NCBI GenBank assembly: GCA_016930915.1
Contig: JAFGFU010000035.1
Coordinates: 1-64,000 of the forward strand
Source: Campylobacterales bacterium
Lineage (GTDB): Bacteria > Campylobacterota > Campylobacteria > Campylobacterales > Sulfurospirillaceae
Reading direction: 5' to 3'
Length of the DNA: 64,000 bases
A program made the position numbers and the translations under genes. Of the stretch, positions 3,757 through 50,658 are shown piece after piece. The notes below the pieces were generated by a model, which did not search any database, was not told the DNA's origin, and saw only the letters and a list, made by a program, of their open reading frames with translations. Position 1 is the stretch's first letter. Every line of letters starts with the position of its first letter.

Positions 3757-3778
3757 TCTTTACATGTAAAGATTAAAA
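3751..3778. terminator. Perfect 28-bp palindrome between convergent genes, likely bidirectional terminator
   Basis: TTTTAATC, TTTACATGTAAA and GATTAAAA run together as a perfect palindrome that overlaps the stop codons of both flanking convergent genes. The A/T-rich ends give U-tracts in both directions. It is one of the extended copies of the TACATGTA family. Confidence 0.65.
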
Positions 3779-39069: not shown

Positions 39070-39096
39070 GAGCGCTTGCGTTAAAACGTTTACATT

Positions 39097-39232
39097 AGAT
39101 TTCTTACAAAACTTATTTTGCAAGAAAGAAAAGCACCAAAGGTGCGTGGGCATTCCGCCGAGGAAAACCCAGTGTTAACGTAGCCGTTAGAGCTTTGCTT
39201 TCACGGCGTGTTTAGAGTTCTGAAAGAACTCT
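39097..39232. repeat. 136-bp structured dispersed element, copy A
   Basis: Same length as copy B (46458-46593) and about 86% identical. It starts AGATTTCTTACAAAA and ends with AGAGTTCT, GAA, AGAACTCT. Inside are hairpins GCACC-AAA-GGTGC, TGGG...CCCA enclosing TTCC...GGAA, and GCCGT...ACGGC, plus an invariant CCCAGTGTTAACGTAGCC. The ends form imperfect terminal inverted repeats. It fills the gap between two convergent genes. No coding potential. Confidence 0.88.
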
Positions 39233-39233
39233 A

Positions 39234-40580
39234 TTATAAAAAGATAACTGACATAATCGCCACAATGCTAATGGTAACTAAGCCTTGAATCAGCGTTGCC
39301 ATGGTGTATGCTTTGTAGGATGTTGGAACGTCCATTTGGCTGAAGCGTGAGACGACCCAGAAAAAGCTATCATTTGCGTGACTGATGGTGAGTGCACCCG
39401 CACCAATTGCCATGACGGTTAAGACTTTGCCCATCTCACTATCAAGCCCTAGACTTGCTAAAAGTGGATACATAATGGTTGAGGTCACCACCAGCGCTGT
39501 GGTAGATGAGCCTTGTGCGGTTTTGAGTGCTGCTGCAATGATAAAAGGTACAAAAATACCCAGACTCAAGGTTTGAAGGCTCGCTCCTAAATAATCACCA
39601 ATGCCACTGGCTTTTAGCACCGCACCCAAAGCACCACCCGCACCTGTAATAATGAGAATTTCACCTGAGTTTTTAATGCCCTCACCTACCCAGCCAGAAA
39701 GTGTCTCTTCATTCCATTTTGGTAACAATAAACTAGCAAATAAAACACCGACAAAAAGGGCATTGGCAGGGTTTCCTAAGAAAACAAACACTTTGTACCA
39801 CAGCATATCGCTGGAGGCTTTAAAAGAGAGTTTGACAATGCTTTCCATCGCCATTAACAGTACAGGAATAAAAATAGGCGCAAAGGATTTGAAGGCACTG
39901 GGAAGTTCGCCGTATTTTGCCATAACATCCTCATCTTTTTCCAAATCTACATCAAGGTCTTCGCCACTGGTATAGCGTTTTCCTTGCTTCATCGCCCAAA
40001 AATAACCCGCTAGCATGGTAAACATCGAGATAAAAAGCCCAACAACAATGACAAAGCCCAAATTCCCGACCATTAAATTTCCTGCTGCGGCAATAGGACC
40101 TGGGGTGGGTGGAACGAGGGTGTGTGTGGCAAAAAGCCCTGTGGCAAGGGCTACACTCATCGCAACACCTGAGACTTTAAGTTGTTTGACTAAGGAGCGT
40201 TTGAGTGCGTTTAAAATGACAAATCCGCTATCGCAAAAAACAGGGATGGAGACAATGTACCCAATGATGGACATCGCAAGCACAGGGCGTCTTTTACCCA
40301 CCACTTTTAAGACAACATTTGCCATTTGAACGGCGGCACCGCTTTTTTCAAGCACCACCCCAATGATAGTACCTAACACAATCACAATACCAATGTACGC
40401 CAAAATACCACCAAAACCCGTTGTAATGGTTTTTGCAATCTCTGCGTATTTCATCCCCACACTAAAAGCAATGCCATAGGCTGCAATCAGCAAAGCAAGG
40501 AAAGGGTGTAACTTCCATTTACTCGTTGAAAGTACGATAAAACCAATTGCTACCAGCAAAATCACAATAAGCATTCTCAC
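39234..40580 (-). CDS. GntP-family gluconate/organic acid:H+ symporter
   Basis: 448-aa inner-membrane transporter with about 12-14 hydrophobic segments. GntP-family landmarks are GFGGILAYIGIVIVLGTIIGVVLEKSGAA, SIPVFCDSGFVIL and LVPPTPGPIAAA. Family members take up gluconate or related hydroxy acids with protons. No gluconate kinase or dehydratase is adjacent, so the real substrate may be another hydroxy acid such as glycerate or lactate. The stop lies two bases from the structured element. Confidence 0.92.
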   Translation of the reverse strand: MRMLIVILLVAIGFIVLSTSKWKLHPFLALLIAAYGIAFSVGMKYAEIAKTITTGFGGILAYIGIVIVLGTIIGVVLEKSGAAVQMANVVLKVVGKRRPVLAMSIIGYIVSIPVFCDSGFVILNALKRSLVKQLKVSGVAMSVALATGLFATHTLVPPTPGPIAAAGNLMVGNLGFVIVVGLFISMFTMLAGYFWAMKQGKRYTSGEDLDVDLEKDEDVMAKYGELPSAFKSFAPIFIPVLLMAMESIVKLSFKASSDMLWYKVFVFLGNPANALFVGVLFASLLLPKWNEETLSGWVGEGIKNSGEILIITGAGGALGAVLKASGIGDYLGASLQTLSLGIFVPFIIAAALKTAQGSSTTALVVTSTIMYPLLASLGLDSEMGKVLTVMAIGAGALTISHANDSFFWVVSRFSQMDVPTSYKAYTMATLIQGLVTISIVAIMSVIFL

Positions 40581-44828: not shown

Positions 44829-44864
44829 TCTCAAAGAGGCGATCCGCCAAGCGCCTCTTTGAAA
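44829..44864. terminator. Hairpin overlapping the 3' end of the histidine kinase gene
   Basis: TCAAAGAGGCG and, ten bases on, CGCCTCTTTGA form an 11-bp stem that includes the last kinase codons and its stop. It may end transcription of both the kinase and the convergent lipoprotein gene. Confidence 0.6.
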
Positions 44865-46441
44865 CCTTTTTCTATCTCAATCGTAAAAATAGCCCCACCG
44901 TTTTCATTTCGAGCTTCAAGCTTCCCTTTCATACTCTTTTCAATGATTAATTTTGCCATATAAAGTCCAATGCCTGTACCTTCATTTTGCTCTTTCGTGC
45001 TCACATAGGGTTCAAATATTTTTTCTATGGGATGGATGGTAATGCCTCCCCCATTGTCTTTAACAATTAATCGCACCGCATGGGCTGTTTTTTTCAACAA
45101 AATTGTAATTTTTCCTCTAGGGGTTCCTGAAGAGATAATGGCATCTTTTGCATTGGAAAGCAGGTTGAGAATGACTTGTTCGTATTCGCTTTTATACCCA
45201 AGTATCTGAGCATCTTCTTCAATATGCACTTCAATAGCAATATGTTGATTGGTAATAGATTTTCCAATAATGCGCAATACCTCTTCGACAGATTTTTTAA
45301 TGCTAAATGCTTTTTGATCTTTGTTCGGCATAAAAAAATTACGAAAATCATCAATGGTGTGAGACATATATTCAACAATATTTTCAGCCTCAGCGCATTT
45401 TGTTTCCATACTTTTTTGGTCAAGTTTGTGCATGGCGTATTTGAGTTTGAGTGTAATAAGCAGGGCTGAAAGCTGTGAAAGGGGTTGTCTCCATTGGTGG
45501 GCAATGTTGCTAATCATCTCACCTAAAGCAATAAATTTTGCTTTTTGAATGAGAAGTTGTTCTTGTTCTCTGCTTTTTTTAATCTCTTCTTGTACGCGAC
45601 TCTCTAGTGTTCTATTGAGATTTTCAAGTTCCCATGTTTTTTGTTGCACTTGAGCATGATAGCTGTTTAAAAAACGCTCTATGTGTTTTCCAAGCATGAC
45701 CGCAAAAGCGTTAGCAATAAGTGCAAACAGTAAAAAGATAATAATGGCTGAGGTAATTTCTAAATTCATTTTTTGTTTAAAATCAGCCTTTGCCACTTCT
45801 ATTTCTTGATCAATATCATCGGTGTATGCGCCTGCTGCAATAATTAAATTCCACTCTTTATAACGTTTAAAGTAAGAAACTTTAGGACGAATGGCTCCAC
45901 TTTCTGGTTTTTTGTATGCATACTCAACAAAAGAGTAACCTTTTGCATGAATATCTTGTAAAAAGATTTTGCGAAAGGCTTTCCCGTTTTCATCGGTATA
46001 AGAATCAGAGATGTAGTGCCCTTCAAGATCAGGTCGATTGGGATTAATGAGCATTTTTGCAAAATTTTCACCTCCTTCTATATCAATAACTTGATAAACG
46101 AAAATGTAGTTATGTTCTTGCCCACCATAGCGAATGTGACGTATCCAGTCATAGACTTCTTGTTTGAGAATTTCTTCTTCCCTAAGGCTGAGCATGGGTG
46201 TGCGTTTTTTCTTAAATTCAATAAATTCTATAATGGCATCGACTTCTCGTTTGAGAACATTGCGTTTATTTTCAACAAATGTTTTTTTACTGTCTTCAAT
46301 GTGTGCATCTAAAATTTCATACTGTTTGGTAATAAAAAAATAGCCGTTAAAAAGCATCAAAGCACTAATAATAAAGATAGTGCTCACAATAATGATATTT
46401 GAAATATTACTTTCTTTGATGATTTTCACAAAAAACTCCAA
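44831..46441 (-). CDS. Cache-domain sensor histidine kinase
   Basis: 536-aa membrane kinase. The first membrane helix (IIIVSTIFIISALMLFNGYFF) is followed by a periplasmic single Cache-type domain (about residues 45-215, with YIFVYQVIDIEGGENFAKMLINP and KEWNLIIAAGAYTDDID), a second helix (AIIIFLLFALIANAFAV), a coiled coil, the His phosphorylation site in NIAHQWRQPLSQL and an ATPase domain (NLLSNAKDAI, VKDNGGGI, GTGIGLYMAK). The response regulator and TRAP transporter genes are divergent from it, so the likely signal is an organic acid taken up by that transporter. Its last codons overlap a strong hairpin. Confidence 0.92.
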   Translation of the reverse strand: MEFFVKIIKESNISNIIIVSTIFIISALMLFNGYFFITKQYEILDAHIEDSKKTFVENKRNVLKREVDAIIEFIEFKKKRTPMLSLREEEILKQEVYDWIRHIRYGGQEHNYIFVYQVIDIEGGENFAKMLINPNRPDLEGHYISDSYTDENGKAFRKIFLQDIHAKGYSFVEYAYKKPESGAIRPKVSYFKRYKEWNLIIAAGAYTDDIDQEIEVAKADFKQKMNLEITSAIIIFLLFALIANAFAVMLGKHIERFLNSYHAQVQQKTWELENLNRTLESRVQEEIKKSREQEQLLIQKAKFIALGEMISNIAHQWRQPLSQLSALLITLKLKYAMHKLDQKSMETKCAEAENIVEYMSHTIDDFRNFFMPNKDQKAFSIKKSVEEVLRIIGKSITNQHIAIEVHIEEDAQILGYKSEYEQVILNLLSNAKDAIISSGTPRGKITILLKKTAHAVRLIVKDNGGGITIHPIEKIFEPYVSTKEQNEGTGIGLYMAKLIIEKSMKGKLEARNENGGAIFTIEIEKGFKEALGGSPL

Positions 46442-46457
46442 ATTAGATTGCTATAAT

Positions 46458-46593
46458 AGACTTCTTGCAAAACGCATTTTGCAAGAAGGAAAAGCACCAA
46501 GGGTGCGTGGGTTTTCTGCCAAAGATTACCCAGTGTTAACGTAGCCTTTAGAGCTTTGCTTTAAAGGCGTGTCAAGAGTTCTGCAAGAACTCT
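46458..46593. repeat. 136-bp structured dispersed element, copy B
   Basis: Hairpins in order: CTTCTTGCAAAA/TTTTGCAAGAAG (46461-46488, 12-bp perfect stem, loop CGCA), GCACC/GGTGC (46494-46506), TGGG/CCCA enclosing TCT/AGA, GCCTTT/AAAGGC (46544-46568), AGAGTTCT/AGAACTCT (46575-46593). Compared with copy A, at least three stem positions change on both sides at once (T-A to C-G, C-G to T-A, G-C to T-A). It occupies the divergent gap between the kinase and response regulator genes, so one strand is in the 5' leader of each. Confidence 0.88.
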
Positions 46594-46646
46594 AATAAAT
46601 GAGAGACAAATAATAGTCATTCTTTGTTGAAATGTAAAGGGTTCGT

Positions 46647-47321
46647 ATGAATGAGAAAATGTTGAAAAAATTAGAAAATTATAGAGTCTTATACGCTGAA
46701 GATGAAGTGGGTGTACGCAAAAATGTTTGTGAGCTTTTAAGTCTGCTTTTTAAAGAAGTTTACCTTGCAAATGATGGCGAAGAAGCCTATACTCTTTTTG
46801 AAGAGCATAAACCCGATTTAGTGATTACAGATATTAAAATGCCTCGATTAAGTGGAATTGATTTGGTTAAAAAAATACGCCAAAGTGATGAAGAGGCTCA
46901 CATAATTATTATTACAGCGTATACCGAAGTTGATTTTATGTTAGAAGCTATTGAGCTTTCATTGCTTCGTTATATTGTTAAACCCATTACTGAAGCAAAA
47001 CTCTTTGATGCTTTAGAAAAATTTTTACAAGCACGTGAAAAAGAGCATGTTAAAGAATTAGCTCCCCATTGGTCTTACGATTTTCTTCAAAAAAGTGTTA
47101 CGAACGGTACAAATGTGTATGAATTAACAAAAAAAGAGGCAAAGCTTATTGAACTTCTTTTGCAAAAAGATTCTATCATTACCTATGCGGAAATAGAAGA
47201 GAAATTATGGGAAGGTGAGTACATGAGTTTAAACGCATTGCGTTTAATGATTAAAAATTTAAGAAAGAAGTTACCAGAGGGTGTTTTAAAGAATATACAA
47301 GGAATTGGTTACAAATTGTAA
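46647..47321 (+). CDS. OmpR-type response regulator
   Basis: 224 aa: receiver domain (residues 1-125) with acidic pocket YAEDE, phosphoacceptor Asp in LVITDIKMPR, Thr in IIITAYTE and Lys in YIVKPI; then a winged-helix DNA-binding domain (ELTKKEAKLIELLLQKDS, LRLMIKNLRKKLPEG, IQGIGYKL). Divergent from the Cache kinase and directly upstream of dctPQM, so probably the activator of that transporter. The 136-bp element lies between its promoter region and the kinase gene. Confidence 0.93.
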   Translation: MNEKMLKKLENYRVLYAEDEVGVRKNVCELLSLLFKEVYLANDGEEAYTLFEEHKPDLVITDIKMPRLSGIDLVKKIRQSDEEAHIIIITAYTEVDFMLEAIELSLLRYIVKPITEAKLFDALEKFLQAREKEHVKELAPHWSYDFLQKSVTNGTNVYELTKKEAKLIELLLQKDSIITYAEIEEKLWEGEYMSLNALRLMIKNLRKKLPEGVLKNIQGIGYKL

Positions 47322-47484
47322 CATTATTTTTTAAATAAAGTTTAAATTTTGTCATATATGTTACAAAATGAAACCATAGGCTCTTTAAAGAGGAGTAATT
47401 AACTCTTTACATGTAAAGATACATAATTTTGACATAACTATCACATATAATCGCCTTTAGAAATAATACTAAAAGGAGTCAGAC

Positions 47485-48474
47485 ATGACAAAGTTTCTTA
47501 AAGTGATGGCAGCGGCAACGCTTCTTGTTTCATCTGCAATTGCAGCAGAGTACACCATTAAACTTACTCACGTAGTAAGTGCAAATACCCCAAAAGGTAA
47601 AGGTGCTGATTTTTTTGCAAAAAGAGTTGGCGAGCTTACTAACGGTAAAGTGGAAGTGATTGTATTTCCAAACTCTCAACTTTATGGTGATGGCGAAGAG
47701 ATGAAAGCATTGAAATTAGGAAATGCTCACATTGCAATGCCAAGCTTTTCTAAATTTACAAGCATTGTTCCTGAAATGCAACTTTTTGATCTTCCTTTCT
47801 TATTTAGAGATAAAGAGCATCTTTACAAAGTGTTAGATGGAGAAGTTGGACAAATCTTAAAAGATAAAGTGACCAAAAAAGGCTTTGTTGCGCTTGATTA
47901 TTGGGATGCAGGTTTTAAACACCTCTCTTCTAACAAAAAAGCGGTTCTTCTTCCTGAAGATGCAGCAGGTCAAAAATTTAGAATTATGAGCTCACACGTT
48001 TTGGAAGCACAGTTTAAAGCAGTGGGTGCAAATCCTCAAGTTTTACCATTTTCAGAGGTTTATTCAGCGCTTCAACAAGGCGTTGTTGATGGTGCGGAGA
48101 ACCCACTTTCCAACTTCTATACTAAGAAATTTAATGAAGTTCAAACAGATTTAACCCTTTCAAATCACGGATATTTAGGTTACTTGGTCATTATGAGTGA
48201 GAGTTTTTGGAAAAAGTTTCCAAAAGATTTAAAACCAATGGTACTTCAAGCAATGAAAGAAGCAACCGAGTATGAACGAAAAGAAGCAGCCCTTGATGAT
48301 GACGATATGCTTGCAAAAATCAATGAGTATGCTAAATCTACAGGCAATCTTAAAGTTCACACCCTAACAGCTGAGCAAAAAGTTGCATGGCAAAAAGCAA
48401 TGGAAGCCATTTATCCACAGTTTTACAAAACCGTTGGTGAAGACTTAATTAAAAAAGTTCAAGCAGTTAAATAG
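47485..48474 (+). CDS. dctP: TRAP transporter substrate-binding protein DctP
   Basis: 329-aa periplasmic binding protein of a tripartite ATP-independent transporter for C4-dicarboxylates or similar acids. Signal peptide MTKFLKVMAAATLLVSSAIAA. DctP landmarks are VSANTPKGKGADFFAKRV, LFDLPFLFRDKEHLYKVLDG, KFRIMSSHVLEAQFKAVGA (substrate Arg) and LQQGVVDGAENPLSNFY. Strong ribosome site AAAAGGAG. The stop codon is the first base triplet of a 30-bp hairpin, and a second hairpin separates it from dctQ. Confidence 0.94.
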   Translation: MTKFLKVMAAATLLVSSAIAAEYTIKLTHVVSANTPKGKGADFFAKRVGELTNGKVEVIVFPNSQLYGDGEEMKALKLGNAHIAMPSFSKFTSIVPEMQLFDLPFLFRDKEHLYKVLDGEVGQILKDKVTKKGFVALDYWDAGFKHLSSNKKAVLLPEDAAGQKFRIMSSHVLEAQFKAVGANPQVLPFSEVYSALQQGVVDGAENPLSNFYTKKFNEVQTDLTLSNHGYLGYLVIMSESFWKKFPKDLKPMVLQAMKEATEYERKEAALDDDDMLAKINEYAKSTGNLKVHTLTAEQKVAWQKAMEAIYPQFYKTVGEDLIKKVQAVK

Positions 48475-48501
48475 ACTTCTTGCAAAACTGCAAGAAGTCT
48501 A
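48472..48501 (+). repeat. Short hairpin made of the ends of the 136-bp element
   Basis: TAGACTTCTTGCA, loop AAAC, TGCAAGAAGTCTA: a perfect 13-bp stem beginning at the dctP stop codon. Its left 16 bases equal the first 16 of copy B and its right side matches copy B's last bases (TGCAAGAA, CTAATA) with one change. It looks like an internally deleted derivative. Confidence 0.65.
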
Positions 48502-48550: not shown

Positions 48551-48590
48551 AAATCTTTACATGTAAATACACAATGAAGAAGAAAAAACG

Positions 48591-50475: not shown

Positions 50476-50483
50476 ATGAACAA

Positions 50484-50548
50484 TTAGGGGTTAGGGCTAA
50501 ACTTTTAACTTTCAGATAAAAAGTTAAAAGTTTAGCCCTGACCCCTAA
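50484..50548. repeat. REP-like inverted pair
   Basis: Two 29-base arms with one mismatch, beginning TTAGGGGTTAGGGCTAAACT and ending in its complement (TTTAGCCCTGACCCCTAA), around a seven-base loop CAGATAA. Each arm is a member of the GGGG-x-AGGGCT-x3-CTTTTAACTTT family also seen at 35157, 36895 and 52026. Palindromic pairs like this resemble REP/BIME units mobilised by RAYT transposases. Confidence 0.85.
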
Positions 50549-50658
50549 TAAGATGTTACAAAGCGATTTCAAAGAGGCTTTTTCCTGAAAGATTTATTGT
50601 AATTTAGAAAATTTTGTGATAGACTTTCCTCGCTTTCAAAAAAATTCAAGGAGACACT

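Follow-up and report, generated by a model that had tools for sequence, protein, structure and literature searches.

A miniature inverted-repeat element with a covarying, pseudoknotted core between a sensor kinase and its response regulator in Sulfurospirillum

Introduction

Both miniature inverted-repeat elements (MITEs) and REP repeats are already known; the MITE described here adds a member to the first, and its core adds a structured-repeat variant. The closest described systems are IS5-family insertion sequences (IS) and their MITEs, which our case resembles in a two-ORF DDE transposase (HTH_Tnp_4, DDE_Tnp_4) carried on ~916 bp, in near-identical terminal repeats and in a 3-bp AAT/ATT duplication. 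It departs from them in that the MITE retains only about 20 bp of the IS end, with an interior that is not IS-derived. Correia elements (CREE) of Neisseria are likewise MITEs, bounded by terminal repeats and present in at least tens of copies, and one of them sits directly downstream of the mtrCDE promoter, where RNase III cuts the transcript at its repeats (PMC10969869). That placement just behind a promoter parallels the layout reported below. Correia elements have other ends and another host phylum, and no independent conserved pseudoknot core is described for them in the text consulted.

Two further systems bear on the interior of the element. REP/BIME sequences, associated with RAYT (TnpAREP) transposases, are intergenic, occur in many copies, carry GTAG before a strand-specific hairpin and include some head-to-head pairs, as does our core. 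GTAG and CGTC repeats were listed for Sulfurovum sp. in 2013 (PMC3733652). The Campylobacterota also possess a class of 23S rRNA intervening sequences (PMC2801512), located at helices 25 and 45.

The window analysed here is a 64,000-nucleotide stretch (contig JAFGFU010000035.1, positions 1 to 64,000, forward strand) of a Sulfurospirillaceae genome, referred to as G000. We consider it very probable that an IS5-type MITE, moved in trans and carrying along a phylum-level core, inserted behind the −10 box of a response-regulator gene and would thereby have altered the neighbouring leaders.

Results

The element is a non-autonomous transposon

The element occupies positions 46458–46593 (+ strand, 136 bp) and contains no ORF. 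Its terminal inverted repeats are AGACTTCTTGCAAAA (46458–46472, +), which is close to the IS ends described below, and AGAGTTCTTGCAGAA (46579–46593, −). Hairpin 1 (46461–46488, +) is built from the left end and hairpin 5 (46575–46593, +) from the right end. AAT flanks the element on both sides (46455–46457 and 46594–46596), and the insertion point adjoins an AATAAT repeat, which leaves the exact duplication there slightly ambiguous. A second member of the family, copy A (39097–39232, +), is bordered by an ATT duplication (39094–39096 and 39233–39235) and is 85% identical to the copy at 46458–46593. Both copies fold well below shuffled controls on each strand (z −4.6 to −6.3).

A BLAST search of G000 returned 24 matches, of which about 19 are element copies at 78–96% identity, a number far above chance, and copies are present in all 24 genomes of the genus (Sulfurospirillum). 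When aligned, the copies have sharp ends with the flanking 3 bp repeated. Perfect 3-bp duplications flank 36 of 52 distinct full-length copies, whereas shuffled right-hand flanks gave 14.9 on average and 24 at most. The duplicated triplets are mostly AAT (n = 18) and ATT (n = 13), with few TTT, ATA and TAT.

Orthologous sites were compared between species. The kinase/regulator gap was examined in 22 genomes; it is empty in 19 (62–87 bp) and filled in three (G000, G002 and G020). The difference between filled and empty gaps equals the element plus 3 bp, that is, one AAT. Further filled/empty pairs (L045/L323 and L006/L210, with flanks 94% identical in one of them) gave the same outcome. The three filled-gap copies vary among themselves. 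In G020 (L262), the orthologous regulator gene is apparently frame-broken, with two overlapping matches containing stops.

The earlier note had placed a structured element with the layout of a miniature inverted-repeat element at this position. Its coordinates proved exact and the ends it gave are present; the layout is borne out by the terminal repeats, by the 3-bp duplication, by orthologous sites that lack the element and by an autonomous IS of sister species whose ends match. That the 136-bp element is a non-autonomous transposon, a MITE, is well supported. The target duplication is new relative to that note, as is a mini-element consisting of terminal repeats only. The latter, a 28-bp sequence AGACTTCTTGCAAAACTGCAAGAAGTCT (48473–48500, +) with AAT on each side, lies in the dctP–dctQ gap of the TRAP operon and was not found in the orthologous gap of relatives.

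An IS5-type insertion sequence of sister species shares the ends

In a DDE_Tnp_1 search of the genus, an IS of ~916 bp was found in five sister species (G004, G005, G007, G012 and G022); its termini are AGACATCTTGCAAAACTCA, and AAT/ATT duplications flank it. This IS encodes two ORFs with the domains HTH_Tnp_4 and DDE_Tnp_4/DDE_Tnp_1, and we take it to be a member of the IS5 family, an assignment based on its Pfam domains and on the usual duplication lengths of IS families. Its end shares 21 of 23 bases with the element-family consensus and 20 with the copy at 46458–46593. The ends of the MITE thus resemble those of an autonomous transposon in the same genus. No intact matching IS was found in G000, a draft assembly of 37 contigs, in which the sole DDE_Tnp_1 match is a decayed fragment; a terminal-repeat scan of the same genome returned related short elements and no transposase.

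On end similarity and the shared 3-bp duplication, the IS of the sister species is the likely donor of the element ends, and transposition of the Sulfurospirillum version via IS5-type ends is well supported. The IS5-type transposase would then move the element in trans, generating a 3-bp ANT-like duplication. As a separate candidate, transposases of IS1031 type (DUF4096, PF13340) were searched for; there was no match in the 24 genomes of the genus, which counts against that subgroup only.

A second MITE family was seen alongside the first. Its members are about 165 bp long, with ends AGACTTCTTnCATAACCC and 3-bp duplications (L283–L305; L277, 1488–1640), and occur in 15 of the 24 genomes. The autonomous partner of this family is a sister IS found at L325 and L331, which shares its ends.

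The element lies between two predicted promoters

A kinase ORF (44831–46441, −) and an OmpR-type regulator ORF (46647–47321, +) are 205 bp apart, and the element accounts for two thirds of this gap; the earlier note had it occupying most of the gap. Pfam domains of these ORFs are Cache, HATPase, Response_reg and Trans_reg_C. Downstream of the regulator lie dctP and genes for two TRAP-type membrane proteins.

Extended −10 boxes are in use in Campylobacterota, and a predicted box of this kind, TGCTATAAT, occupies 46449–46457 (+) on the regulator side. The motif TGNTATAAT occurs on the regulator strand of the gap in 16 of 22 orthologues. The first base of the element directly follows this predicted box. 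On the other strand, a predicted kinase promoter (TTTACA-N17-TATTAT; 46610–46638, −) points leftward through the element, and TTTACA-N17-TATNAT is likewise found on the kinase strand in 16 of 22 orthologues. Both promoters are consensus matches, and in a general promoter scan, which also picked up the kinase promoter, promoter-like sites were no commoner than in shuffles. The distance from the predicted −10 box to the regulator start codon is 48–67 nt in empty orthologues and 189 nt in the window. From these positions we infer transcript starts at about 46464 (+), inside the element, and at about 46603 (−), together with an effect on expression.

The element is predicted to lie in the 5′ leaders of both kinase and regulator because opposing conserved promoters flank it. 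The earlier note had placed it, if transcribed, in the leader of one of the two genes; a leader location is favoured by the predicted −10 box upstream and the opposing promoter, which would put it in both leaders. Having inserted downstream of the −10 box of the response-regulator gene and ahead of its expected transcription start, with a promoter facing it from either side, the element would have added about 140 nt of stable stem-loop sequence to each leader, in sense orientation in the regulator mRNA and in antisense orientation in that of the kinase. Locally, this would most likely change how stable the leaders are or how they are processed (e.g., through cutting by RNase III or attenuation), and such a change may shift expression of the kinase and regulator and hence of the TRAP transporter.

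Empty gaps (e.g., L243 and L252) contain a near-perfect palindrome, GAATCA-TAG-TGATTC, between the facing promoters, which is a possible binding site of the regulator judging by its sequence and position. This operator-like palindrome is degraded in the filled genomes, the window included. The degradation fits an alternative in which the element is neutral, a decaying insertion in a tolerant gap with no effect on either gene. We regard neutrality as quite possible, leaning slightly against it. The filled gap is kept in one small group only (G000, G002 and G020), with changes between copies, and the copy in the window has lost one pair of pseudoknot stem 2 (see below). Against neutrality, the predicted promoters, the ribosome-binding region and intact reading frames are kept in G000 and G002, the regulator frame being broken in G020. 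Altered leaders are our preferred reading.

Other repeats were noted in the window. Directly downstream of the TRAP operon is a 30-nt inverted repeat, 97% complementary with a 7-nt loop (50483–50549), parts of which recur at other places in the window. A palindrome, TTTACATGTAAA, was counted 24 times in the 64 kb as compared to 0.04 expected (e.g., 3759–3770, 47406–47417 and 48556–48567), and is also present in loci of other Sulfurospirillum genomes.

The core covaries as a pseudoknotted structure

Inside the terminal repeats is a core of ~90 nt, composed of a hairpin, an H-type pseudoknot, a GTTA mini-hairpin and a GTAG-hairpin. In the copy at 46458–46593, all on the + strand, these correspond to hairpin 2 (GCACC-AAG-GGTGC, 46494–46506), the pseudoknot (46509–46527), the mini-hairpin GTGTTAAC (46533–46540) within the conserved strand TACCCAGTGTTAACGTAG (46527–46544), and hairpin 4 (46545–46567) with GTAG just before it. 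Pseudoknot stem 1 pairs 46510–46512 with 46518–46520, and stem 2 pairs 46514–46517 with 46523–46526. One of the four stem-2 pairs is broken here, which makes this copy of the core somewhat decayed; all pairs are intact in copy A.

Two sets of copies were used to evaluate the structure. In the first, of 72 copies, 93.7% of cells are paired as the named structure requires; shuffles gave 73.7%, and sliding the pairing gave no more than 49.1%. The second set, 39 copies from a covariance-model search of which three are shared with the first, gave 97.0% pairing vs 70.2% and a covariation score of 0.762 vs 0.241. Pseudoknot stem 1 was left out of the model that aligned this second set, and its first pair is GC in 20 copies, AU in 17 and other in one. 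The mini-hairpin pair is UA in 20, CG in 17 and UG in two. The core thus shows strong compensatory covariation, including in the pseudoknot. G-U pairs outnumber A-C mismatches by 99 to 11, which identifies the folding strand and shows that one strand is favoured. A GGG/CCC pairing across hairpin 3, proposed by an energy fold, was rejected: the middle G/A change tracks the loop C/U, as in pseudoknot stem 1, and not the CCC.

Some variation in the core was recorded. Certain Sulfurospirillum copies (L069, L070 and L063 at 1628) hold an additional 17-nt hairpin within hairpin 4, and small hairpin insertions resembling GTGCCCCTTGCGGG are found in Sulfuricurvum and Sulfurimonas copies. In several copies from these two genera (L379, L383, L232, L147 and L169), a conserved module comes after the core, consisting of a hairpin with CCCTTCAT and then TTTTATgaAATAAAATTAAGGA, with a ribosome-binding-like AAGGA at its end.

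The core occurs across the phylum and without the IS5-type ends

The interior core is often found without the element ends, and several copies within Sulfurospirillum itself lack terminal repeats. The earlier note, made from the letters alone, could not reveal the interior as a distinct and widespread core. A covariance model places it in 53 of 298 Campylobacterota genomes and 12 of 58 genera, with 3–59 copies per genome among 24 selected carriers. An 18-base core motif was found in at least 116 stretches of the genome collection. Those listed belong to Campylobacterota (Sulfurospirillum, Sulfuricurvum, Sulfurimonas, Sulfurovum, Hydrogenimonas and others), with the exception of three that come from a single MAG whose label goes no further than Proteobacteria (JAGDMU). 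Searches of plasmid, phage and viral collections matched neither the element nor the 18-base motif, and neither the element nor core copies from eight loci matched an Rfam family. In our reading, the interior of the MITE is this phylum-level structured core, which is also found without IS5-type ends and would have been carried along.

Core copies are intergenic, overlapping predicted ORFs in two of 103 cases, and are oriented without bias relative to their neighbours (same/same 27, opposite/opposite 34, and 21 and 21 for the remaining arrangements; 22, 19, 15 and 13 in the Sulfurospirillum set). Some copies form tandem arrays with a spacing of about 87–102 nt, and some form head-to-head pairs. 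One such pair was observed within the 23S rRNA gene of G264 (L228, 1501–1676), at what we take to be the helix-45 site, in the manner of an intervening sequence. This pair resembles the 23S rRNA intervening sequences of Campylobacterota; the core appears in G264 as a passenger, and most copies differ from that class in being ordinary intergenic sequences. An inverted pair in the 16S–23S spacer of G182 (L234, 1436–1595) terminates at the start of the 23S rRNA model, and four equal-scoring matches suggest one pair per rRNA operon.

How the core spreads

The strand-specific folding favours an intermediate that is single-stranded DNA or RNA. One way to obtain such an intermediate would be for the core to be a REP-like single-stranded DNA structure (GTAG plus hairpin), spread by a Y1/HUH transposase of RAYT type independently of the IS5-type ends. 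The GTAG directly 5′ of the strand-specific hairpin 4, at its foot, corresponds to the REP tag (PMC8266576, PMC3733652), and the strand preference, the unbiased orientation relative to genes and the head-to-head pairs are all REP-like. No REP is assigned to RAYT subclass 2.1, a subclass that is prevalent among epsilonproteobacteria (PMC6006769). Y1_Tnp is commoner in genomes with the core, at 39 of 53 vs 46 of 245 genomes, and at 25 of 39 core-bearing vs 46 of 245 other genomes with the genus itself left out, both counts being uncorrected for kinship. Nonetheless, no Y1_Tnp match was obtained in 14 of the 53 carriers, among them G209 with 18 copies and G182 and G297 with 12 each, and no core lies within about 1.5 kb of any of 20 Y1 loci of the genus. 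REP hairpins measure 20–40 bp (PMC3733652); the core is a far longer conserved unit with additional structured parts, the pseudoknot among them, and does not consist of such a palindrome alone. We did not file the core as a REP because of the 14 carriers without Y1_Tnp, because no core adjoins the 20 Y1 genes and because the association is uncorrected for kinship, and we consider a REP/RAYT origin unlikely. The Sulfurovum GTAG/CGTC repeats of PMC3733652 may include hairpin 4.

The same covariation and highly conserved strand could also reflect a functional non-coding or cis-regulatory RNA under host selection, such as a protein-binding leader, for which the MITE would be a mere carrier. The H-type pseudoknot and the G-U wobbles that follow one folding strand are compatible with this, as are copies in the leaders of operon genes (e.g., dnaK in several Sulfuricurvum genomes) and within rRNA transcripts. 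That copies are randomly oriented speaks against a sense RNA under host selection. Occupancy is also patchy between close species: of eight species read from one genus, G209 and G308 have the core in the grpE–dnaK gap and the other six lack it, five of these having a short gap. Gene context is not shared among copies, and we judge host selection of the core to be quite improbable. Spread through RNA could take the form of a SINE-like element carried by a reverse transcriptase, or of a small self-cleaving RNA arranged in tandem. This would agree with strand-specific folding, the pseudoknot, the tandem spacing and the copies inside rRNA transcripts, but no reverse-transcription signature was seen and Rfam gave no ribozyme match; we consider it very unlikely.

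A further reading, which we put forward tentatively, is that the core could be a new class of mobile, strand-specific, pseudoknotted Campylobacterota element with mobility machinery of its own, acting as folded single-stranded DNA or as RNA, which in Sulfurospirillum would have been captured between IS5-type ends.

Discussion

A search of open-licence papers returned no specific description of such a repeat in Sulfurospirillum or Sulfurimonas, nor of the whole core. A dispersed bacterial repeat with a covariation-supported pseudoknot, found in many genera of one phylum and not in Rfam, appears to be undescribed in that literature. The covariance model allows others to annotate core copies, and the fold raises the question of which enzyme recognises it.

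Should the core prove to be mobile in its own right, the IS5-type ends would constitute a second, efficient spreading route, one that places it in gene leaders such as those of the window. The kinase/regulator gap, with and without the element in sister species, offers a natural experiment in which the effect of the insertion on the two-component system and the TRAP transporter would be measurable.
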